Shown: positions 1,234 to 10,050 of the stretch, piece after piece | Position numbering within the stretch: the stretch's first letter is position 1 | Layout of the letters: each line of letters opens with the position of its first letter | Virus record (IMG/VR): IMGVR_UViG_3300034682_000448 | Location: 1-40,590 of that record | Length of the DNA stretch: 40,590 bases | Strand: one strand, 5' to 3' | Source: a virus | The notes under the pieces: model-generated | The model's input: only the letters and a program-made list of their open reading frames with translations | Told to the model about the DNA's origin: nothing | Databases searched by the model: none | Program-made: the position numbers and the translations under genes

Positions 1234-1875
1234 TCATTTGCTGGGCGGTATCACGCTCATGGACGCCCAGGCTCGCAACTGAACCTCGGGAAAGCTCTTG
1301 GTGATCCCTTTGAAAATCTGCTTATAGATTCCAGTGCTTTCTCGCCCCAGGATCCCTGCTGCATATAGGTTTCTGTAGGTGTCTCCGCCAGCCTTCTTAT
1401 GCTTTTCAAAGAATCGCAAAGTCGTCACATCTGCGTAGATTTCAGCTTTAACTAAGTTCACGCTCATATTTGAGCTGTTAAAATTCTTTTGTAAATATAG
1501 GTCTTTGGCGTGCATCAGTTCGTGATGAAGCAGAATTGTTTGCAAAGCCCAGTAAATATTAGGAGCTTCAGCTTCCGTAACGCCAGCTGGTTCTTGGCCT
1601 AGAAAGACGGCAGTCCCTACTGTGCCGTTCCTGACATAGTTGGTAGCAAATCCTCCGGCATTGGCCATTGTATACCCATTGTCCTCAAGGGACTGGATAG
1701 ATTGGTCTTTGAAACGCAGTACCGAATCAAATTCGATTCCAGCTTCTTGCAAATTTTCTTCTGGTGTTCTACTGAATGAGTTTTGACCAATAAACCTAAT
1801 GGATACGTTCAGTTCCGGATAAAAATTGGAGACGGCATAGAAAAGATCCTTAGTCTCCAGGCTTTGCTCCAACAT
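1234..1875 (-). CDS. Putative zinc metallopeptidase with gluzincin signature, cargo next to the attachment site
   Basis: The product is 213 residues with start ATG 1875; an in-frame upstream start at 1977 would lie deep inside the integrase gene. It carries HHELMHAKD, giving HExxH at about 118-122. A second acidic motif AEIYAD (ExxxD) follows about 23 residues after the second histidine, the spacing seen in gluzincins such as thermolysin. No signal peptide or membrane segment is seen, so a cytoplasmic or lysis-released role is likely. The start overlaps the integrase 3' end by 26 bp and AAGGGA precedes it. The region is richer in A and T than its neighbours, which suggests a recently acquired gene. 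The family is not recognised. An ImmA/IrrE-like protease, which also uses HExxH, is a less likely alternative. Confidence 0.72.
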   Translation of the reverse strand: MLEQSLETKDLFYAVSNFYPELNVSIRFIGQNSFSRTPEENLQEAGIEFDSVLRFKDQSIQSLEDNGYTMANAGGFATNYVRNGTVGTAVFLGQEPAGVTEAEAPNIYWALQTILLHHELMHAKDLYLQKNFNSSNMSVNLVKAEIYADVTTLRFFEKHKKAGGDTYRNLYAAGILGRESTGIYKQIFKGITKSFPEVQLRAWASMSVIPPSK

Positions 1876-3043
1876 GCTTAATCCCTTCGTTCGTTTTAAC
1901 TGATGACCAAAATTTTTCGGCTTTGAAACCTGCATCCACATCTGCCGATGGCATCCATCGACCATAGACGCGGGCAATCATGGTCCAATCAGTATGCCCC
2001 ATTTGCTTCGCCACCCACATCGGGTGCTCTCCTGCAGAAAGCATCATCGAAGCGTAGGTGTGCCGAGTCTGGTAGGGGCGCCGGTATCGAACGCCCGCCT
2101 TCTTCATTGCCGGGTGCCACATCGTCTTGCGGATCGGTTGATCTCCTGCCCAGCGCTCAAGCGTCCGAGGGTTTTGGAAGACCTCTGCATCAGCCAGGAA
2201 CGTGTGCGCCTTCTGCGCCGCAAGCGCTTCTAGAGCAGGGCCCAGCAGCTTCACCGATCGCCGGCCTGCGGCAGTCTTCGTTACCTCAGCCACCCCACCT
2301 GCAGCCTGGGTCATTGCCCGGCTGATCATCACCTCCCCACGTACCCAGTCCACATCTCCCCAATTCAGCGCTACAAGCTCGCTCGTCCGGAGGCCGGTCC
2401 ATAGCGCAAACTGAACCATGTTCCTGGCCTGGCCGCTCAAGGCTGCCAGAATTGCCTGCTGCTCCTCAGGCGAGAACGGGTCCACATCGTCATCCTTCGG
2501 TGGCGCTTCCTTCCTGGCGTATGTCCACCCGGCCAGCGGGTTGATATCCAGCAACTCCTCATCGACGGCATCATTGAGTGCTGATCGGAGGCAGCTCTGG
2601 ATGTTGCTCAGTGTCTTGTTGCTTACCTGCAGGCCGTCCAGCCAGTCACGAACCGTCTTGCGTTTGAACTCGATGACCAGGTGATGGCCGAGGGCTGGAA
2701 TCAGCCTCAGCTCGACAATCTTCCTGTATCCCGCAAAGGTGCTGCTGGAAATGTGCTTCTGCTTAGCGGCCAACCACCTGGTCAGAAATCCGCCCACGGT
2801 TTCCTGGCTGGTCTCCGGTGCAAATTTGGCGGCGCGGGGGGAGCCGGGGAACGTGACGGCATAGTCGAACGTCCCCTGGGCAATGGCGTGCTCGATCGCG
2901 GCCTTATGCTGCTGAGCCTTCTTCAGATTAGTGGCGGTGGGCTTGAGCGCGACGCGCTCGCGGCACCTAACACCCCGGTACATGAACGTGATCTCGATGC
3001 TCGAGTCTGAGACTGCCCTGACACCGCTCCCGCCTCTACCCAT
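1850..3043 (-). CDS. int: Prophage tyrosine integrase (DUF3596 arm domain)
   Basis: This 397-residue site-specific recombinase should integrate the prophage at the adjacent ssrA attachment site. The N-terminus (1-70, with SSIEITFMYRGVRCRERV) is a DUF3596-type arm-binding domain. A SAM-like core-binding domain lies at about 84-175 and the catalytic domain at about 190-375. Catalytic positions visible are R219 (TGLRTSEL), K256 (VTKTAAGRR), R327 (YQTRHTYAS), H350 (QMGHTD) and Y360 (RVYGRWMP). As in related integrases, the histidine of the HxxR box is replaced by tyrosine. The start at 3043 lies 121 bp inside the excisionase gene, so expression of the two is probably linked. Length and motifs look complete, so the enzyme should be active. 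Confidence 0.95.
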   Translation of the reverse strand: MGRGGSGVRAVSDSSIEITFMYRGVRCRERVALKPTATNLKKAQQHKAAIEHAIAQGTFDYAVTFPGSPRAAKFAPETSQETVGGFLTRWLAAKQKHISSSTFAGYRKIVELRLIPALGHHLVIEFKRKTVRDWLDGLQVSNKTLSNIQSCLRSALNDAVDEELLDINPLAGWTYARKEAPPKDDDVDPFSPEEQQAILAALSGQARNMVQFALWTGLRTSELVALNWGDVDWVRGEVMISRAMTQAAGGVAEVTKTAAGRRSVKLLGPALEALAAQKAHTFLADAEVFQNPRTLERWAGDQPIRKTMWHPAMKKAGVRYRRPYQTRHTYASMMLSAGEHPMWVAKQMGHTDWTMIARVYGRWMPSADVDAGFKAEKFWSSVKTNEGIKHVGAKPGD

Positions 3044-3198
3044 GATTCATATCCTTCCATGTCAATCAGCGTCCGGCCATCCGGCGCCTTTAGCCAAATT
3101 TCACCAAGCCGCCAGATCCCGTCGCGGATCTTTGAGCGGATCGCGTCTTCGGTGTAGCCAGACTCGCTGGCGAACTTTCTGACGGTCATGTAGCGCAT
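2923..3198 (-). CDS. xis: Excisionase
   Basis: This 91-residue basic protein is predicted to act with the integrase as recombination directionality factor. The start is ATG 3198 with GGAG eight to eleven bases upstream; a longer frame to 3237 has no support. The N-terminus MRYMTVRKFASESGYTEDAI followed by RSKIRDGIW is a winged-helix excisionase signature, and WLKAPDGRTLIDMEGYESWV is typical of excisionases beside DUF3596 integrases. The C-terminal 40 residues are read from DNA that also encodes the integrase start and are Ser/Arg-rich low-complexity sequence, so they may matter little for function. Only four bases separate it from the upstream DUF1566 gene. Confidence 0.88.
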   Translation of the reverse strand: MRYMTVRKFASESGYTEDAIRSKIRDGIWRLGEIWLKAPDGRTLIDMEGYESWVEAGAVSGQSQTRASRSRSCTGVLGAASASRSSPPPLI

Positions 3199-3202
3199 TG
3201 AT

Positions 3203-3979
3203 CTACTCCACCTGACGCGCCAGGTTTTGGTTGTCACGCTGACCTGTCACAACAGCCGTTGCCAGTGCCGCCAGCTCAGCTACCAATGCGTCCGTGCGTC
3301 CGTAGAATTTGCCGGTGTCCTCGTTCACGAACCGCTCGAGCACGTTGGCCACGGCGTGCTGGTTGGCCAAGCCGCGCAAATTGGCGCTGGGCACGGCCGT
3401 CTCGGTCGACGGAGCGTGGACGAAAGACTCTTGGCTGATCAGCAAGGTGCGCACCGGCCTGATGCCCTTGCATTTGCTCACCCAGTTCGTATCAGGCACG
3501 CACCAGGGCAGCATGTGCATGCACCAGGCCGTCGCTGCGTTCTCCTTCTGACTGCTGGTCCAGTACTCGCTAAGGCCGAACGCCTGGGCCGCCCCCCTGG
3601 CTGTGTACGACCCGTCGTGCCCCCAGTCCGGGAGCTGCAAAAGATTGCAGCGCAGGACCTGCAGCTCCTCGATCGACGGGATGTGCCAGCCCCATGTACC
3701 ACGGATGTTCATTCCCAGCACCTTGCGGGCGATAGCGCTGCCCTCGGCGGCCATTGCCTGAGTGTTGGCCAGACCGTCGAAACGCGACGTGGCACCCCGG
3801 ATGCGCGGGCGAGGGCCTTCTTCCTGCCACCAGTGGGCGGCCACTTCGAACTCCCGACCTGCGTCGATGACTGCGTGCTCCGCGCCATCGAAGAAGAGGC
3901 GGCCGGCGAATAAGCCGCCAGCCAGGGGCTGCCCAACGGCGGGGAGGGCAGCCGGGTTGATTGCTCGATGTTTGATCAT
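3203..3979 (-). CDS. DUF1566-domain phage protein
   Basis: The product is 258 residues from ATG 3979, preceded by GGGGA. It belongs to the phage group with a DUF1566 (Lcl C-terminal) fold: GLFAGRLFFDG near residue 25, a DGLANTQAMAAEGSAIA stretch, WHIPSIEELQVL and YWTSSQKENAATAWCMHM are characteristic. DUF1566 domains occur in surface and phage proteins, and no biochemical role is established for this early-region form. No signal peptide is present. It sits in the leftward operon, overlapped by 4 bases (ATGA) by the small upstream gene and followed closely by xis, so it should be expressed with the integration genes. About 60 C-terminal residues, including VLERFVNEDTGKFYGRTDAL, resemble an added helical tail. 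Confidence 0.8.
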   Translation of the reverse strand: MIKHRAINPAALPAVGQPLAGGLFAGRLFFDGAEHAVIDAGREFEVAAHWWQEEGPRPRIRGATSRFDGLANTQAMAAEGSAIARKVLGMNIRGTWGWHIPSIEELQVLRCNLLQLPDWGHDGSYTARGAAQAFGLSEYWTSSQKENAATAWCMHMLPWCVPDTNWVSKCKGIRPVRTLLISQESFVHAPSTETAVPSANLRGLANQHAVANVLERFVNEDTGKFYGRTDALVAELAALATAVVTGQRDNQNLARQVE

Positions 3980-4119
3980 GGTTGTCCCCGGAAGTGATCG
4001 GCCAGCACCTGGCGCCCGTCCAGGCCGCAAGCGGAAGACAGGTCGAGCACCTGGCCAAAGGTGGTTTCGCGATGCTGCAGGGCATCCCACAGCAGCAGGA
4101 GCAGGCCGGCCTGGGTCAT
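3976..4119 (-). CDS. Small hypothetical phage protein, 47 residues
   Basis: The short frame begins [20 protein letters not shown] and ends DHFRGQP. Its ATG at 4119 overlaps the stop of the upstream gene by 4 bases (ATGA), and its own stop overlaps the start of the DUF1566 gene by 4 bases. The gene is therefore perfectly tiled into the leftward operon, the main argument that it is real. The sequence looks like a small alpha-helical soluble protein; the Leu run is too short to be a confident membrane span. No family is recognised. Confidence 0.6.
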   Translation of the reverse strand: MTQAGLLLLLWDALQHRETTFGQVLDLSSACGLDGRQVLADHFRGQP

Positions 4120-4787
4120 GGCTGCTGCTCCTGCACCACCTGCTGCTCTAAGGCTTCCAGACGCAGAGCCGTGTCGACCTCGCGGTCCAGCTCTTCATCA
4201 CAGAACCATTTGTTTCCGCGCACCACCAACAGGTCGTGGTCAGGATCATTCAGGCGCTCGCGGTCTCGCAGATAGCGGTACCGGCGCGCATCGGCAGCCA
4301 TCTGGACGTGGTCGTCGATGTTGAAGCTGGCGCCATCAATTGGAGGCTGTGAGATTTTTTTCTCCTCAGCCTTAAATTCTTCTGTCGATGGTCCGTCTAT
4401 CAGATGAGAAGGCGCTCGCGGCCTTCCCTGGGACAGATTGAGCACCAGTTCGATCTCAGCCAGTGCGTCCTCCGCCTCGCTCCACATCTCCTCGCTAGGC
4501 GTCATTCCGTGCCCGGCGACAGCCATGAACCCACCTACCTTCACGTCGATTCGTTTGAGCAGGTTCGCCATTTCCGGCGCAGCCAAGGCCAAGTGCTGAT
4601 CCACGCTCAGCGCTTCCTCCAGGCGCTCAACGTCCACCTGCAGATCACCCTCACTGGCGCCGGCGATCACTGCCAAGCCGCGCCCCACGGATACCATTTG
4701 GCCGAGCTTGATGAAGGGTAGGATGGCCGACAACGGCGCCGCCTCGCATGCGCGCAGCACCAGGGTGATGCGATCAGGAGCCGACAT
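4116..4787 (-). CDS. Hypothetical phage protein
   Basis: The product is 223 residues from ATG 4787; a GTG two codons earlier is possible. The N-terminal half is helical with a hydrophobic patch near residue 25 ([15 protein letters not shown]). The middle (about 120-165) is charged and likely a linker. The C-terminal 60 residues contain [12 protein letters not shown], a [12 protein letters not shown] stretch and [10 protein letters not shown]. The first two recur at the ends of many phage early proteins of unknown role. The gene overlaps the csrA-like gene upstream by 14 bases and the 47-residue gene downstream by 4, so it is translationally coupled within the leftward operon. No catalytic motif is visible. 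Confidence 0.75.
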
Positions 4788-5154
4788 ACGCACCCCCGGT
4801 GGCGGCCTGGAGGCCGGCCAAGAAAATCAGGTAGTCGCCGTGGGTGCGGTCATCGACGAAGCCGCTCACCGGACCTTTCTCCAGTTCAGTCTCGCTGGCG
4901 CCGATCGGGTTGGCGGCAATGAACAGGTCGCGAGGATCGACCGCCGCTGGCGAGGCCTCGGAACTTGGCGCGGTGGAGGTAAGGCTGTCGCCCTGAGCGC
5001 GAATGCGCTCGAAGATCTCCTGGCGATGCACGGGAACGCCTGCAGGGGCTTCCACCCCGATGCGCGTTTGCATGCCTTTTACGCCCAGTATGGTCACAGC
5101 AATGTCATTGTTGATGCGGATGGTCTCGCCAACACGACGGGTCAAAATCAACAT
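4774..5154 (-). CDS. CsrA/RsmA-family RNA-binding protein with C-terminal extension
   Basis: The first 60 of 126 residues are a clear CsrA/Rsm[35 protein letters not shown] and [10 protein letters not shown]. The RNA-contact residues L4, R6, R7 and R44 of the family are conserved. CsrA dimers bind GGA motifs in mRNA leaders and control stability or translation, so the prophage copy could reprogram host or phage mRNAs. The usual family length is 55-65 residues. Here about 65 extra residues follow (a Ser/Ala/Pro linker, then [20 protein letters not shown] at the end) with no recognised domain. The ATG at 5154 follows AAGGAG; a TTG two codons earlier is less likely. The 3' end overlaps the next gene by 14 bases. 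Confidence 0.9.
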
Positions 5155-5193
5155 GGTCAAACTCCTTGTAGGGGAGGGCGGCGATTGCCGCCC
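5155..5193 (-). promoter_or_regulatory. Leader hairpin and GGA-bearing Shine-Dalgarno of the csrA-like gene
   Basis: Upstream of the csrA-like start a 7-bp GC hairpin (5176-5182 with 5187-5193, 4-nt loop) is followed by ACAAGGAG as ribosome binding site. That site contains ANGGA, the core recognised by CsrA proteins, so autogenous translational control is plausible. The hairpin and motif are visible; the control is inference. Confidence 0.45.
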
Positions 5194-5199
5194 TTCAAT

Positions 5200-5403
5200 T
5201 CACTGCGTTGTGCGCAGCTCGTTGCGTGGTACCCAGCCGCCGGTGGTTTTCACCATGCAGCCGACGTAGGGCGCGAACTTGGTGTGCCGCTCGGTCTGGT
5301 AGCCGTACCATTGGCACGACCCCCAGTTCACAACAGCGGCGATTGCGAGCGCGCACAGGGCAAGCCCTACAACCGCGCCCAGGCCTATGTGCTTGCGCTT
5401 CAA
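5200..5403 (-). CDS. Small membrane protein
   Basis: The product is 67 residues. After MKRKHIG a hydrophobic segment at about 8-26 (LGAVVGLALCALAIAAVVN) forms one membrane span or uncleaved signal anchor. A short polar tail with two cysteines and WVPRNELRTTQ at the end follows, probably periplasmic. No methionine is available near the start; the gene begins at TTG 5403, which overlaps the stop of the TerB-like gene (TTGA), so translation is probably coupled. The function is unknown. Position beside regulators in the early leftward operon would suit a role at the host membrane, but nothing in the sequence proves it. Confidence 0.7.
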   Translation of the reverse strand: MKRKHIGLGAVVGLALCALAIAAVVNWGSCQWYGYQTERHTKFAPYVGCMVKTTGGWVPRNELRTTQ

Positions 5404-5837
5404 ACCTCGATACCGAAGTCTTTGGGGCGCAAGCCCAGCTGCACGCCAACCTCTGCCAGGACCTTGAGTTCTTCGGGACTGATGTTTCCGTCGCCCTCGG
5501 CAACGGTGATCATGTTCACGAACACCTCCTCGGCATCGAGAGGGTTGTTCTTGATGTCCGCGATCTCCCGCATGATGTTCATGCGCCCCAGGCGGAAGCC
5601 GGCCTGCAGTTGTTCGGTGAAGAGGTTCACGGTGGCGGTGATCTCTTGGCCGAAGTGCTCCAGGTTCTTGTTTGCCCGGATCTGGATGTCGATCTGAGCA
5701 GCTTCGTTCTTGCTGATCTCGCCGTCAGCCGCCGCCACCAGCAGGCAGCCACCAACGATGGCTTGCATCAGGTCACGGTTTTCCAGCTTCTTGACTGCGC
5801 GCTTGGCGCCGAACAGTTTCTTTCCAATACCGAACAT
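5400..5837 (-). CDS. TerB-like (tellurite-resistance TerB family) protein
   Basis: The product is 145 residues from ATG 5837, preceded by AGAGGAA. It matches the helical TerB/DjlA-like domain: LMQAIVGGCLLVAAADGEIS at about 34-53 and VNMITVAEGDGNISPEELKVL at about 107-127 carry the two acidic DGEIS and DGNISPEE metal-binding-like repeats of the family. TerB domains are cytoplasmic and linked to stress, tellurite and phage-defence modules, but no Ter operon partner is present here. It lies between the LuxR-type regulator and the small membrane protein in the leftward early operon. The exact role in the phage is unknown. Confidence 0.8.
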   Translation of the reverse strand: MFGIGKKLFGAKRAVKKLENRDLMQAIVGGCLLVAAADGEISKNEAAQIDIQIRANKNLEHFGQEITATVNLFTEQLQAGFRLGRMNIMREIADIKNNPLDAEEVFVNMITVAEGDGNISPEELKVLAEVGVQLGLRPKDFGIEV

Positions 5838-5943
5838 GGGTCTTTCCTCTTGGGTTGGTGGAGCTTTCATCAGGCAAGCCGGTGGCCTGCCGCGTTTGTT
5901 GGCTTTCGCAAAATCAGGGTTGGATCAGGTCAGGCGGGTAGCG

Positions 5944-6342
5944 TCACGCCACCGCCAAGACGCACTCAGCGCGCCGGGTTGCTACACGAACTTCTACCTT
6001 GCGCTCACCACCGTTACCGCCGCGGCGTATGCGCATTGCTTGGTCGTCGCCGATCATTCCATGGATAGCCATCAGCAGGGCCAGGGCGGTAGCGGCAGGG
6101 CTGATCACTCCGCGCTTGAATGCCTCAGCTACAAGCGCAGCACGACGGGTTACGCCCCACTTGGTGCCCAGCGCGATCAAGCGTTTCTTCACGCCGTCTT
6201 CGCTGATGCCTAGGGTGCGGGCAGCCTCTTTCCCGGAGGCGCCACCAGCAATAGCCAGCAGGCACTCAAGCTCGCGAGGGGCTGCGCCATGGCCAAGCAG
6301 GCCTTGCCAGTTACCGAGGGTTATGGTTGCTGTCGTGGTCAT
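5944..6342 (-). CDS. LuxR-type helix-turn-helix regulator
   Basis: This 132-residue protein has a GerE/LuxR-type DNA-binding domain at about 21-75: PRELECLLAIAGGASGKEAA, RTLGISEDGVKKRLIALGTK. It lacks any response-regulator or autoinducer domain. A hydrophobic stretch (ISPAATALALLMAIHGMIG, about 80-98) and a basic tail follow, an arrangement repeatedly seen in Pseudomonas prophages. The start is ATG 6342 with AAGGAG upstream. It is the first gene of the leftward operon, directly downstream of the candidate pL operator region, so it should be made early and be repressed by CI in the lysogen. A role in controlling the leftward genes or host quorum-related promoters is inference. Confidence 0.82.
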   Translation of the reverse strand: MTTTATITLGNWQGLLGHGAAPRELECLLAIAGGASGKEAARTLGISEDGVKKRLIALGTKWGVTRRAALVAEAFKRGVISPAATALALLMAIHGMIGDDQAMRIRRGGNGGERKVEVRVATRRAECVLAVA

Positions 6343-6365: not shown

Positions 6366-6440
6366 ATGAGTCAAATATGGATTAACTCATATTTTTGGTC
6401 AAGGGGTTTTCTCATATTTTGGCGTGGATACTCATAACCC
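6366..6440 (-). promoter_or_regulatory. Candidate leftward promoter pL with repeated operator half-sites
   Basis: On the minus strand a TTGACC box (6402-6397) is followed after 17 bases by CATATT (6379-6374), a plausible sigma70 promoter for the LuxR-type gene and the leftward operon. An inverted repeat ATGAGT (6366-6371) / ACTCAT (6385-6390) overlaps the -10. CTCATATTTT recurs at 6386-6395 and 6411-6420, and CTCATA again at 6431. The same ATGAG/CTCAT half-site forms the dyad at 7281-7294 by the Cro-like gene, which suggests operators for CI and Cro. Confidence 0.6.
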
Positions 6441-6453
6441 TCGCAGCGCGGGC

Positions 6454-6477
6454 AAAAAAAATCCGGCCATTGGCCGG
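6454..6477 (-). terminator. Intrinsic terminator of the repressor gene
   Basis: On the minus strand a CCGGCC-AAT-GGCCGG hairpin (6463-6477) is followed by a run of T (A-run 6454-6461 on the plus strand). It lies 24 bases after the cI stop and before the candidate pL, and should end repressor transcription there. Confidence 0.8.
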
Positions 6478-6500
6478 AATTGCGGTTGCTTGAGTTGGGG

Positions 6501-7244
6501 CTATATGGTCGCGGTATACCAGAATACGCGACCGAGAATCTTGAGCTTGCCATCCAATGCTTCGACCAGTGGGTAATCTTCGTCCGGATGGTCCGCTCGG
6601 TTGTAGCTCCTTAGCCGAGTCCCATAATCGGGAAGGCTATGCAGGAGTTTCACTCTGAGCTGCCCCCTATGGGCAACTGCGTACATTCTCCCGTCATCGC
6701 CATCTAAGATCTGAGTGTTTATGGCAACCACGCTACCTGAGGGCAGGACAGGGTCCATCGAGTTTCCGCGCACCTCGATGCAAAATGCGCGATCCGGAGT
6801 GATTCCTTGCCGGCTGAGAATCTCAGTATCGAATCGCATTTTGCGAGTTTTAGACACTGCGAATCCTGGTGGTAGAACGAGGCCGCTCCTCAGCACAGAT
6901 TCGGGGGCATCTCGGTCCTCTTCAATGAACCAGAGGAACGTTTCCGAGTCATCTAGCGGCGAATCTACATCCCATGTGTTGAATGGGCGTGTAGTTTTGA
7001 ATCCATCAGGCACCGGGCCGCGAAAAATGACATGGTCCTCAACCATTGGACCCACGCCAGTCTCCAACCACACAGGGCTTACCCCGCATACGCTAGCAAT
7101 CGAGACGGTGTGCGAGGAGCCCTGAGACTTCCCTCTTTCGAGGTTCGAAATAGAGGTTTGGTCAATTCCAACCTGGCGAGCGAGCTCTGCCTGGGTAAGG
7201 CCTGCTTGCTTACGGGCTGCTTTCAAACGTTGGCTGTAGTTCAT
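6501..7244 (-). CDS. CI-like repressor, XRE HTH plus S24 peptidase domain
   Basis: The product is 247 residues, the length of a full lambda-type repressor. An XRE helix-turn-helix occupies 1-60 (RLKAARKQAGLTQAELARQV, then IDQTSISNLERG). A LexA/S24 peptidase domain lies at about 140-245 with catalytic serine S162 in VRGNSMDPVLPSG and general-base lysine K199 in LRVKLLH. It should keep the lysogen quiet by binding the dyads at 6366-6440 and 7266-7318. No Ala-Gly or Cys-Gly pair is present between the two domains, although these are the usual self-cleavage sites in LexA, lambda CI and UmuD. RecA-stimulated cleavage would therefore need another site, or induction works differently. ATG 7244 has only a weak ribosome binding site. 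Confidence 0.93.
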   Translation of the reverse strand: MNYSQRLKAARKQAGLTQAELARQVGIDQTSISNLERGKSQGSSHTVSIASVCGVSPVWLETGVGPMVEDHVIFRGPVPDGFKTTRPFNTWDVDSPLDDSETFLWFIEEDRDAPESVLRSGLVLPPGFAVSKTRKMRFDTEILSRQGITPDRAFCIEVRGNSMDPVLPSGSVVAINTQILDGDDGRMYAVAHRGQLRVKLLHSLPDYGTRLRSYNRADHPDEDYPLVEALDGKLKILGRVFWYTATI

Positions 7245-7265: not shown

Positions 7266-7318
7266 CCCCTAGGCTTGCAAATGAGTATTCTCATGATATA
7301 GCCTAGGGGAAAGCTCAT
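7266..7318 (+). promoter_or_regulatory. Immunity operator/promoter: nested palindrome with candidate pR
   Basis: Between the divergent cI and Cro-like genes a 10-bp outer inverted repeat (CCCCTAGGCT 7266-7275, AGCCTAGGGG 7300-7309) encloses a second dyad ATGAGTATTCTCAT (7281-7294) with exactly the same centre (7287.5). A plausible rightward promoter is TTGCAA (7275-7280), a 16-base spacer filled by the inner dyad, and TATAGC (7297-7302). A further CTCAT half-site lies at 7314-7318, close to the Cro-like ribosome binding site. The layout fits repression of pR by CI or Cro. Confidence 0.65.
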
Positions 7319-7332
7319 AAAAGGTGTTGGAT

Positions 7333-7629
7333 ATGGATCTTCGCATCCAGAAGCTCATAAACCATTTCGGCACACAGCAGAAGGCAGCTGTGGCTCTGGG
7401 TGTCGACCAAACGACGATCTCTGGATGGTTGCGCGGCAAACACTCTATTTCGCCAGCAAATGCACTTCGTATTCAGATCGCCACATCTGGAGCTATCCAG
7501 GCTGCTGACGTTTGCTCTGTTCTCGCGGATTTGGCCCCGACCTTGAAGCAAATGGTACCTGCCAACAGCCATCAGCGTAACTCCACTGAGGCGGCTGTGA
7601 ATCCATCCAGTGCCGGAGGTGCCCAGTGA
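7333..7629 (+). CDS. Cro/YdaS-like DNA-binding protein
   Basis: The product is 98 residues from ATG 7333, which has AAAGG eight bases upstream; a GTG nine bases earlier is less likely. The first 65 residues carry an HTH of the Cro/YdaS antitoxin-like group: IQKLINHFGTQQKAAVALGV, DQTTISGWLRGK. It is the first gene rightward from the immunity operator and divergent to cI, the classical position of Cro, so it probably shuts down cI and early transcription. The C-terminal 30 residues are Ser/Ala/Asn-rich and look disordered. Its stop overlaps the GTG start of the next gene by 4 bases. Confidence 0.87.
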   Translation: MDLRIQKLINHFGTQQKAAVALGVDQTTISGWLRGKHSISPANALRIQIATSGAIQAADVCSVLADLAPTLKQMVPANSHQRNSTEAAVNPSSAGGAQ

Positions 7630-8234
7630 GCAACGTAATCCACCTCGACTTCGAAGGGCGGCAGGTAGACCTAAGCGCTGATGGGTGGCTGAACGCCACG
7701 AAAATCGCCAAGCAGTTTGGCAAGGAGCCGACTGCCTGGCTTCGCCAAATCGACACCCTCGAATACCTTTGCGTTATGGGAGATGCCCTTGGGGTCAATT
7801 CTGTCACCCTGACAGAATTCAATGAAATCAAAGAGTTAGATGCATCTAAGTCTTGGGTTCGCTCCAAGATTCTCGCTCTCGCGAAAAGGACTGGTCTCGT
7901 GATGACCAAGGCCGGCGGAAGCGGCGGGACATGGCTGCACCCGAAGGTCAGGGTTTATTTCGGTCGCTGGATCAGCACTAAGTTCGCTGTTTGGTGCGAT
8001 ACGAAAGTTGAAGCACTGCTGAGCGGTGCTCCGTCGAAGCTGGATCGACTCAATCGCGCTTGCAAGATTTTCGACGACCGCGAATCTCTCGCCAGCACCT
8101 ACGGGCGCGGACTTTGTGAGTGGAAGCGCGACAAGCCGCTGCTGCTAGGCGACATCGAGCGCGAGCTTGATTCACTGCAAATGGTGCTCGGCTTGAACAA
8201 CCCCAATCAACCTCGCCTGAAGGCCTTCTCATGA
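7626..8234 (+). CDS. KilA-N domain protein
   Basis: The product is 202 residues with a GTG start at 7626 that overlaps the Cro-like stop (GTGA). The N-terminal 130 residues form a KilA-N DNA-binding domain: DGWLNATKIAKQFGKEPTAW near 19-38, then GGSGGTWLHPKVRVYFGRW and STKFAVWCDTKVEALLSG. KilA-N proteins occur in large DNA viruses and temperate phages, often as antirepressors or regulators. The C-terminal part (about 140-202) is helical without a recognised domain. It is the second gene of the rightward early operon, and a terminator follows at 8289, so cro-kilA may form the first transcript before antitermination. Confidence 0.87.
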   Translation: MSNVIHLDFEGRQVDLSADGWLNATKIAKQFGKEPTAWLRQIDTLEYLCVMGDALGVNSVTLTEFNEIKELDASKSWVRSKILALAKRTGLVMTKAGGSGGTWLHPKVRVYFGRWISTKFAVWCDTKVEALLSGAPSKLDRLNRACKIFDDRESLASTYGRGLCEWKRDKPLLLGDIERELDSLQMVLGLNNPNQPRLKAFS

Positions 8235-8951: not shown

Positions 8952-9244
8952 ACCAGATTGTCCCGGTGTGGCAGCCAGATGGCTTGCATGGTGAGATCGT
9001 CCACGACGTGACCCTCACCGCAGCGGATATCGCGCGTTTCAACGAAGCGCGCGAATCATTCAAGTTGATCAAAGCCTTGTACTGGGCGCATGTCGTGCCC
9101 TCGCTTGGCGGATTCGGCAATCCTGTAACCGGGGAGCTTGAACGTCTGTTTGAGCGGGTCGTTTTCGACACCAGGAATTTCCTGTACCCGCACCGCAACG
9201 CTGCGGCCTTCCATGATGCAAAGGATGTGGGAGGTGATGCATGA
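8948..9244 (+). CDS. Hypothetical phage protein
   Basis: A 98-residue protein beginning MNQIVPVWQPDGLHGEIVHD at ATG 8948, coupled to the upstream stop (ATGA). An in-frame earlier start at 8915 would overlap the upstream gene more and is not preferred. It has a beta-like N-terminus and a helical C-terminal half (RFNEARESFKLIKALYWAHV). It ends at 9244 with a 4-base overlap into the ORF6N gene. The function is unknown; co-translation with DUF3077 and ORF6N proteins marks it as an early gene. Confidence 0.75.
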   Translation: MNQIVPVWQPDGLHGEIVHDVTLTAADIARFNEARESFKLIKALYWAHVVPSLGGFGNPVTGELERLFERVVFDTRNFLYPHRNAAAFHDAKDVGGDA

Positions 9245-10050
9245 ATCTGGTCACCATCCACAACACTCAACTGCCCGTCGTTGAGTACCGCGGCCAGCGC
9301 GTCGTCACCCTGGCGATGGTAGATGCAGTTCATCGACGCCCCGAGAACACCGCTCGCCGTAATTTCAATGAGAACAAAGACCGGTTCATTGAGGGGGAGG
9401 ATTTCTTCAAGACCACCCCCGCCGAGCTTCGCCAGCATTTCGTACGGGCATCGTGCGAAATCCCATGCAACAAGCTGGTGCCGATCCAGGGGCGCGGGGT
9501 AACTCTGCTAACTGAGCAAGGCTACCTCATGCTTTGCAAATCGCTGACAGACGATCTCGCTTGGGAGGTTCAGCGGCAGCTGGTCAATCGCTATTTCCGT
9601 CCAGAATCGAAGGTAGTTACTGCTCCTGCTCTCCCGAATGATTACATCGAGGCTCTGGAACACCTGCTGGCCTCGAAGCGCTCCGAGCAGCTAGCGCTGG
9701 AACAACGTGACCACGCGATCGCGACCAAGGCGGAGATCGGTAGCCGGCGCGAAGCCACGGCCATGGCCACCGCATCAGCTGCCGTGCGCAAGGTCATGCA
9801 CTTGGAGAACGAGCTGGGCAGGGGCTGCCAGCACGCCACTGTCACAGCGGTGGAGAAGGCCGCTCGCCGGTCGTTCGGCACCCAGGGTTTCCGGCCCCTC
9901 AAGACCTGGTGCGACAGCCATGGTGTGGCTGCCCCAAAAGTCCAAGACCCGCGATTCGGCTGGGTTCGCTCCTGGCCTGCCGCCGCCTGGGCGGCTGTTT
10001 ACCAAATTGACCTGGCCGAGCTGTTCGGCACTCCGGGAGAAACCGCATGA
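9241..10050 (+). CDS. ORF6N domain protein, probable antirepressor
   Basis: The product is 269 residues. The N-terminal 125 residues match the ORF6N domain of phage antirepressor-type proteins: LPVVEYRGQRVVTLAMVDAV, then RRNFNENKDRFIEGEDFF and LLTEQGYLMLCKSLTDDLAW. A long helix (about 140-195) links to a basic C-terminal domain (about 200-265, with KAARRSFGTQGFRPLKTWCD) that is likely DNA- or protein-binding. Proteins of this type can counteract phage repressors or act as early regulators. It overlaps its neighbours by 4 bases on both sides. It is the second antirepressor-type domain after KilA-N in the same operon. Confidence 0.85.
   Translation: MNLVTIHNTQLPVVEYRGQRVVTLAMVDAVHRRPENTARRNFNENKDRFIEGEDFFKTTPAELRQHFVRASCEIPCNKLVPIQGRGVTLLTEQGYLMLCKSLTDDLAWEVQRQLVNRYFRPESKVVTAPALPNDYIEALEHLLASKRSEQLALEQRDHAIATKAEIGSRREATAMATASAAVRKVMHLENELGRGCQHATVTAVEKAARRSFGTQGFRPLKTWCDSHGVAAPKVQDPRFGWVRSWPAAAWAAVYQIDLAELFGTPGETA

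Follow-up and report, generated by a model that had tools for sequence, protein, structure and literature searches.

The tail of a phage CsrA protein is a mobile module that is shared among CsrA, Arc-type, and gN proteins and is under purifying selection. The protein is encoded in the window, which is the whole stretch of DNA analyzed here (40,590 bases) and corresponds to an entire virus record (IMG/VR IMGVR_UViG_3300034682_000448), classed as linear and possibly a fragment. Its gene, csrA-tA (4774 to 5154, minus strand), encodes 126 amino acids that make up a CsrA core, a linker, and a tail module, tA, as recognized with Pfam, NCBIfam, and IMG/VR relatives. CsrA proteins are regarded as small stand-alone dimers, and we know of few protein partners of CsrA. 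Phage CsrA itself is already known, but tails that are shared and swapped between regulators appear to be new; no report of tails common to CsrA and Arc-type proteins came up in searches of open-licence literature. The best explanation, to which we assign a probability of roughly 0.6, is that csrA-tA encodes an Rsm regulator of the early operon that damps host responses, with tA as a swappable acidic adaptor that likely binds protein.

The window has lambda-like tail genes (tape measure, gpJ). At the DNA level, the phage collection offers 17 Pseudomonas phages as near matches, none of which covers more than 7% of the first 20 kb. The phage is probably a lambda-like temperate phage of Pseudomonas.

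Architecture of the CsrA protein

The open reading frame of csrA-tA runs from an ATG at 5154 to a stop at 4774 on the minus strand; a plus-strand reading of the interval gives an unrelated peptide and was rejected. Residues 1–53 form a CsrA/Rsm RNA-binding core (4996 to 5154, minus strand). PF02599 matches residues 1–52 with a score of 74 bits, where the cut-off is 27 (E = 9.1e-21; positions 1–52 of the 53 in the profile), and two NCBIfam CsrA equivalogs match above cut-off. With the translation, which has L4, R6, R7, and R44 at those positions, these matches bear out the claim of a preliminary description, made from the letters of the DNA, that the core is complete and has these residues. L4, R6, and R44 are invariant in an alignment of 16 cores and R7 is variable (N7 in L007 and L008); R44 is also given as an RNA-contact residue in PMC7366521. 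The AlphaFold2 (AF2) monomer model is of moderate confidence (mean pLDDT of 75.8, pTM of 0.41). When searched with Foldseek, it matched 13 PDB chains at E ≤ 0.001, all of them CsrA, RsmE, or RsmA chains and all on the core, which also has sequence matches in PDB. Judged from its sequence, the core should bind GGA-containing RNAs as host RsmA does.

The ∼70 residues that follow the core consist of a linker and a conserved module. The linker (residues 54–71; 4942 to 4995, minus strand) is mostly predicted to be disordered, with pLDDT below 50 at residues 56–70, and is the boundary of tail exchange, as other tails follow the same core in L009–L011. The module tA (residues 72–119; 4798 to 4941, minus strand), delimited by profiles, the AF2 model, and charge, is acidic and modeled with helices at residues 74–81 and 102–119. 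It matches the A1/A3 profile, DPxxxF...NP.G....L......GF.D.....Y..FLAG, at E = 5.2e-36, the window being a seed row of that profile.

Conservation indicates that the tail is real. When the window protein was used to scan IMG/VR, 16 loci were recovered (L002–L017). Five (L002–L006) keep the whole protein in frame, 87–91% identical to that of the window, with L004 and L005 encoding the same protein. In two others (L007 and L008) the tail is kept but the core has diverged, in seven (L009–L013, L015, and L017) a core is present but tA is absent, and two (L014 and L016) match in the tail only. Across 10 pairs each among the window, L002, L003, L004, and L006, dN/dS is 0.04–0.28 for the tail and 0.02–0.10 for the core. 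These values and the in-frame conservation in relatives identify the tail as a translated and selected domain. The preliminary description had set the presence of the tail in close homologs as a test, its absence pointing to a frameshift artifact; the tail survived, and an artifact is rejected, on the strength of L002–L006 and the dN/dS of the tail.

The description of the extra C-terminal residues as a new type also holds up, with ∼70 amino acids lacking a match in the family libraries tried. Pfam has no match to the tail among 21 members tried (best E of 0.1), nor do NCBIfam and PADLOC. In PHROG, the one family that recurs for the tail is phrog_32555, which 5 of 21 rows reach at E ≤ 10 (best E of 0.0039, and 0.013 in another search); a search for phrog_32555 in 149 Pseudomonas genomes returned 0 matches, but as the controls matched nowhere either, this carries little weight. 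A Foldseek search of PDB with the AF2 model found no significant fold match for the tail beyond the core, and BFVD has no match at E ≤ 0.001, the best being CsrA proteins at E = 1.1e-3 and worse. Deposited phages have a single match to the tail (E = 3, in a terminase gene) and deposited plasmids have none at E ≤ 0.01. We also considered tA as a version of a motif that ends the gN gene of L049; with 0 matches in phages and 2 weak matches in 199 genomes besides its own, this stays no more than an impression.

In 20 of 21 rows the tail is acidic and the core is basic, a contrast that makes RNA a less likely ligand of the tail and a protein a more likely one. Opposite charges would also suit a tail that switches the core, by inhibiting it within the molecule or the dimer until a ligand or partner lifts the inhibition, in the way that FliW acts on the C-terminus of Bacillus CsrA, and both FliW and CesT are known to act on CsrA (PMC7366521). 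We consider a switch improbable, however, because the linker is disordered in the AF2 model and tA also occurs on Arc and gN heads and alone, so that contact specific to a CsrA core is not its general role. For the same reason, of the two functions that had been proposed for the extension, an interaction or adaptor role fits better, and tuning of dimerization is less likely as a general role of a module found on unrelated heads.

Sharing of the tail among regulators

The same ∼48-residue tA ends CsrA, Arc-type, and gN proteins, starts long mosaic proteins, or stands alone. It is at the end of Arc-type ribbon-helix-helix proteins in L014, L163, L181, and L050 (the Arc head of L163 matches PF03869 at E = 2.9e-13) and at the end of gN, the N-terminal domain of the gene downstream of csrA-tA in the window, in L027/L160 and L162. 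In long proteins it is followed by a variable C-terminal part, and in L068 and L178 it is encoded alone. The search for the tail as a stand-alone protein, which the preliminary description had recommended, was thus positive and in addition recovered Arc and gN heads. Some residues of tA are invariant or nearly so across the three heads despite wide divergence. Of 28 loci, mostly with tA of the N-terminal type, 15 have in their vicinity a gene that looks from its sequence like a methyltransferase gene, a match to integrase or excisionase, or both.

To catalog combinations, one profile for each head or tail (eight in all) was scanned against all frames of the collected loci and distinct proteins were counted. 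The searches that supplied the loci used CsrA, tA, and gN as queries, and near-copies remain among them; the tallies below should be taken as a catalog, not as frequencies. CsrA occurs with no recognized tail in 59 distinct proteins, with tA in 16, tD in 13, tC in 5, tB in 3, and gC in 1. Arc occurs alone in 23, with tA in 4, and with gC in 3, and gN with gC in 20, with tB in 5, with tA in 2, and with none of these in 3. Another 30 distinct proteins have tA without another profile (alone or N-terminal), and gC is alone in 1. At least six types of tail occur on CsrA cores. The profiles recovered all of their own seeds with no cross-matches at E ≤ 10, and a control with shuffled frames gave 0 matches in 14,548 frames; tail C, considered as a relative of gN, was rejected for lack of a cross-match at that threshold. 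In a separate scan for phage CsrA cores, the best 80 of 539 include 54 with no recognized tail, 10 with tD, 8 with tA, 5 with tC, and 3 with tB. A tail is therefore not required.

Other arrangements were seen among these proteins. Phage CsrA proteins of L093, L138–L140, and L142 have another tail of ∼60 residues (HIDDRVK..EPAFMTVVFKLP), joined by an IDDRVK-like linker; by eye, a similar linker leads into tA and gC as well in several proteins. In L016 (3632 to 4171), an in-frame stop splits an Arc-type gene from tA; the two are fused in L014.

Of 398 sampled Pseudomonas genomes, profile A1 has a match at E < 1e-3 in 12 (15 places in total) and at E ≤ 0.1 in 26, the remainder being weak; it also matches one locus in a scan of GTDB contigs, and the wider profile A3 matches 36 IMG/VR loci. 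Among 390 order-level genomes, the only match was G001, itself a Pseudomonas, so none came from outside the genus, although a sample of this kind does not prove absence.

Exchange of heads and tails

Comparisons of DNA show both sides of the exchange. Between the window and L010, core DNA is 95.5% identical and the tails, tA and tB, are unrelated. Between the window and L007, tail DNA is 81.5% identical and core DNA is 60.8% identical. The tB of L010, on CsrA, and the tB of L006, on gN, are 88.7% identical in DNA. In the tree of cores, the window is in a supported clade of eight (SH-aLRT of 98) with five tA and three tB tails, and supported branches force at least four changes of CsrA-tA state, a rough figure from a quick tree. 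The head label needs 9 changes on the tail tree (shuffled mean of 19.4) and the tail label needs 15 on the core tree (shuffled mean of 35.8), with 0 of 200 shuffles as low in either case; both trees rest on ∼50 columns and most of their forks are open. Because head and tail labels are strongly clustered, pairing is not free and swaps are recurrent rather than rampant.

Gene order suggests a route. Across 14 loci, heads are in the order csrA, Arc, gN wherever two or more occur, and their ends often overlap or abut, so that in-frame deletion or recombination within the operon would be a simple way to exchange tails. The same arrangement could also produce a neutral hitchhiker, that is, a leftover of in-frame deletions between adjacent overlapping genes that the flexible end of the core tolerates while CsrA alone does the work. 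The 54 proteins with no recognized tail among the best 80 of 539 phage CsrAs are in keeping with this, as is a plasmid CsrA with an extra helix that complemented rsm mutants, the helix being deemed non-interfering (Agaras 2013, as cited in PMC7366521). But the dN/dS of 0.04–0.28 in 10 pairs, the residues of tA kept across three heads, its re-use on several core lineages according to the rough tree, and its being encoded alone all argue against neutrality, and we regard a hitchhiking tail as unlikely.

Gene neighborhood and the putative early left operon

In the window, csrA-tA is in a leftward set of genes. A CI-type repressor gene (6501 to 7244, minus strand; HTH_3 and Peptidase_S24 in Pfam) is followed by an intrinsic-terminator-like site (6462 to 6478, minus strand) and then by operator-like half-sites, ATGAG/CTCAT, and promoter-like hexamers (6402 to 6374) in a putative pL-like region (6366 to 6435). 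The first gene of the left operon encodes a LuxR/GerE-type HTH protein (5944 to 6342, minus strand; Pfam, and phrog_3282 at E = 2.1e-45). It is followed, all on the minus strand, by a TerB-like gene (5400 to 5837; PF05099 at E = 4.9e-12), a gene for a small protein of phrog_27356 in the same operon (5200 to 5403), and csrA-tA. The downstream gene (4116 to 4787, minus strand), of the form gN-(insert)-gC, overlaps the end of csrA-tA by 14 nt with its ATG, chosen by hand, at 4787. Beyond it on that strand are a gene with weak similarity to Lcl_C, below the Pfam cut-off, and to phrog_4245 (3203 to 3979), an excisionase-like gene named from its position and sequence (2923 to 3198), and a gene for a tyrosine integrase (1850 to 3043; PF00589 at E = 2.4e-15).

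The simplest reading is that a pL-like leftward operon under CI control extends through to xis and int. An operator-like palindrome, ATGAGTATTCTCAT, is between cI and cro (7281 to 7294), and of the 59 occurrences of ATGAG/CTCAT in 40.6 kb, the cI/cro interval and the region upstream of the GerE gene hold the two densest 100-bp windows (4 each), though the word was picked by eye from these regions and the enrichment is post hoc. A promoter scan of the cI-GerE region gave 2 matches versus 1.2 expected from shuffles, which is not above chance. In other phages, the region upstream of cI and the cI-GerE region share the words GTACCAA (L014), ATTACAA (L162), and AACACCG (L163), none controlled by shuffles; they share no word in L016. 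A hairpin with a T-rich stretch follows cI in five of five loci as judged by eye, weakest in L014.

Further features of this region were noted. In sister phages, two kinds of insert separate gN and gC of the downstream gene, whose RYRYLR-type C-terminal part also ends Arc and CsrA proteins; the AF2 model of a gN-gC relative is poor (61.0). A hairpin of the type GGCAGGCC..GGCTTGCC (5870 to 5895, minus strand, in the window) is after the GerE-like gene and before the next cassette, TerB or csrA. In L007, L009, and L011, as in the window, hairpins of this type come after the GerE-like gene; they are also just before csrA in these three loci and in L012, where the hairpin is farther from the GerE gene. 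The recurring hairpin is possibly a recombination or processing site. Just beyond the integrase gene is a gene (1234 to 1977, minus strand) for a protein with a HExxH-like HELMH and no match in Pfam or PADLOC. The rightward early region has genes for antirepressor-like KilA-N/ORF11CD3 and ORF6N proteins (7626 to 8234 and 9241 to 10050, plus strand).

Leader and possible control of phage mRNAs

The Shine-Dalgarno (SD) sequence of csrA-tA, AAGGAG (5162 to 5167, minus strand), is within ACAAGGAG, a CANGGA match, and is preceded by a GC hairpin (5175 to 5194, minus strand; AGGGCGGC-AAUC-GCCGCCCU) with an 8-bp stem. A similar hairpin sequence is present in L003, L004, L006, and L010. An ANGGA in the ribosome binding site behind a GC hairpin, from which autoregulation had been proposed, is thus there to be seen, but any AAGGAG contains ANGGA and the loop of the hairpin, AAUC, has no GGA. 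Autoregulation of csrA is possible going by sequence, with the SD itself as the ANGGA site.

More broadly, the csrA-tA protein could mainly regulate the mRNAs of the phage rather than those of the host, in autogenous or operon control or the timing of lysis and lysogeny. Three genes, csrA, the GerE-like gene, and int, have CANGGA at the SD, which makes 3 of 9 leftward genes (cI included) and 0 of 26 rightward genes, a post hoc comparison, and lambda genes between exo and xis influence lysogeny (PMC7093339). On the other hand, the numbers are small (ANGGA in 5 of 35 leaders, CANGGA in 3 of 35), starts were hand-picked with one off by a base, and the sites are ordinary SDs. The loop of the hairpin speaks against such control as well. 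Likewise, the window has no cluster of ANGGA (at most 3 per 150 nt) and no Rfam match at gathering cut-offs, and an RNA sponge in the window was rejected on both counts. We hold control of phage mRNAs as the main role to be a minority possibility and favor regulation of the host.

Known relatives and the predicted role

The closest experimentally studied relative that we found is Bci (bacteriophage control infection), encoded by bci of the Pseudomonas aeruginosa prophage AUS531phi, a protein of 123 residues of which 1–51 form the CsrA domain (PMC7546807). Phage deleted of bci infects more weakly, and infection with it raises lasR, rhlR, and qscR ∼5-fold and pqsR ∼13-fold, compared with ∼1- to 1.5-fold for the wild type (PMC7546807). 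When bci is present, motility is down and biofilm and pyocyanin are up (PMC7546807); these two rises are unlike simple RsmA-like repression. Like the window protein, Bci and the CsrA of F116 have a phage CsrA core (residues 1–51) and a C-terminal extension of ∼70 residues. However, their tails are of type E and that of the window is tA, so the window protein does not follow the Bci/F116-type plan; identity to the window protein is 54.9% over residues 1–51 for AUS531phi and 34.6% over residues 1–104 for the F116 type. The function of Bci is therefore carried over to the window by analogy.

In F116, genes for a CI-like repressor and an exonuclease flank csrA. Immediately upstream of csrA is F116p25 (L202, 2254 to 2466), a stand-alone relative 43% identical to the tail of F116 CsrA. 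With Bci and F116p25, phage CsrA of the core-plus-tail form has at least one tested member, and sharing of a tail extends to a second group of phages. Assignment of F116 CsrA to a phrog_5527 type with a gC tail was rejected; phrog_5527 matches CsrA and gC, and the F116 tail is another.

Other phage-linked Rsm proteins have been described. Sobrero and Valverde (2020, PMC7366521) cover RsmM of P. aeruginosa phages (F116 and relatives), the phage-linked RsmL and RsmD, and plasmid CsrA, and already put forward long CsrA C-termini as scaffolds. RsmL and RsmD are, as described there, likewise phage-linked paralogs, RsmL with two extra C-terminal helices, but their description in the relevant part of that source does not include a tail shared with other proteins (PMC7366521). 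In Serratia, CRISPR-Cas is under repression by RsmA, and an anti-CRISPR role has been suggested for phage RsmA (PMC8450108, 2021); such homologs, like the window protein, may suppress host immunity, but in the relevant part of that paper their tails are not described. Mosaicism of domains within phage proteins is also the subject of work on shuffled protein fragments (PMC10684548, 2023), whose main text nowhere mentions CsrA, ribbon-helix-helix, or Ea22, and the accessible part of a paper on Pseudomonas phage MD8 (PMC8508860) does not mention CsrA.

Early left operons of lambdoid phages offer another parallel. To our knowledge, proteins of the Ea22/exo-xis region have no CsrA or Arc heads. Ea22 and the lambdoid exo-xis proteins are also encoded in the early left operon, and Ea22 proteins have similar N-terminal and differing C-terminal parts (PMC7093339).

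We suggest the following course of events for the favored reading. If the CI-type repressor controls the leftward early operon, csrA-tA would be expressed early. Its core would bind GGA RNAs as host RsmA does and push the infected cell to an "Rsm-on" state, which would damp quorum sensing and those responses under Gac/Rsm control that hinder the phage, as reported for Bci. Rewiring of the host, as had been proposed from the sequence, is plausible to this extent, since Bci affects both infection and expression of quorum-sensing genes of the host (PMC7546807). An early phage Rsm protein would also be expected to oppose CRISPR-Cas immunity and the restriction of phages by activated Gac/Rsm. The tail tA would most likely bind a protein partner and be exchanged, by in-frame recombination or deletion, with Arc- and gN-type proteins in the same operon slot of sister phages. 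Four Pseudomonas genomes with tA on CsrA or Arc (G059, G166, G249, and G410) each have four or five CsrA matches, one of them partial; the phage copy thus comes on top of other copies.

A broader reading, which we put forward tentatively and with more doubt than belief, is that of a head-and-tail kit. CsrA, Arc, and gN heads would recombine with a common pool of adaptor tails in the early left operon of Pseudomonas phages, the tail would guide regulators of RNA and DNA to the same host machine or defense factor, and a change of tail would re-aim the set.

One tail on RNA-binding and DNA-binding heads provides a natural domain-swap set for probing the extensions of CsrA. Because activating Gac/Rsm restricts phages in P. 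protegens (PMC11888443), the sharing of tA is also relevant to the ways in which phages may counter immunity linked to Gac/Rsm.
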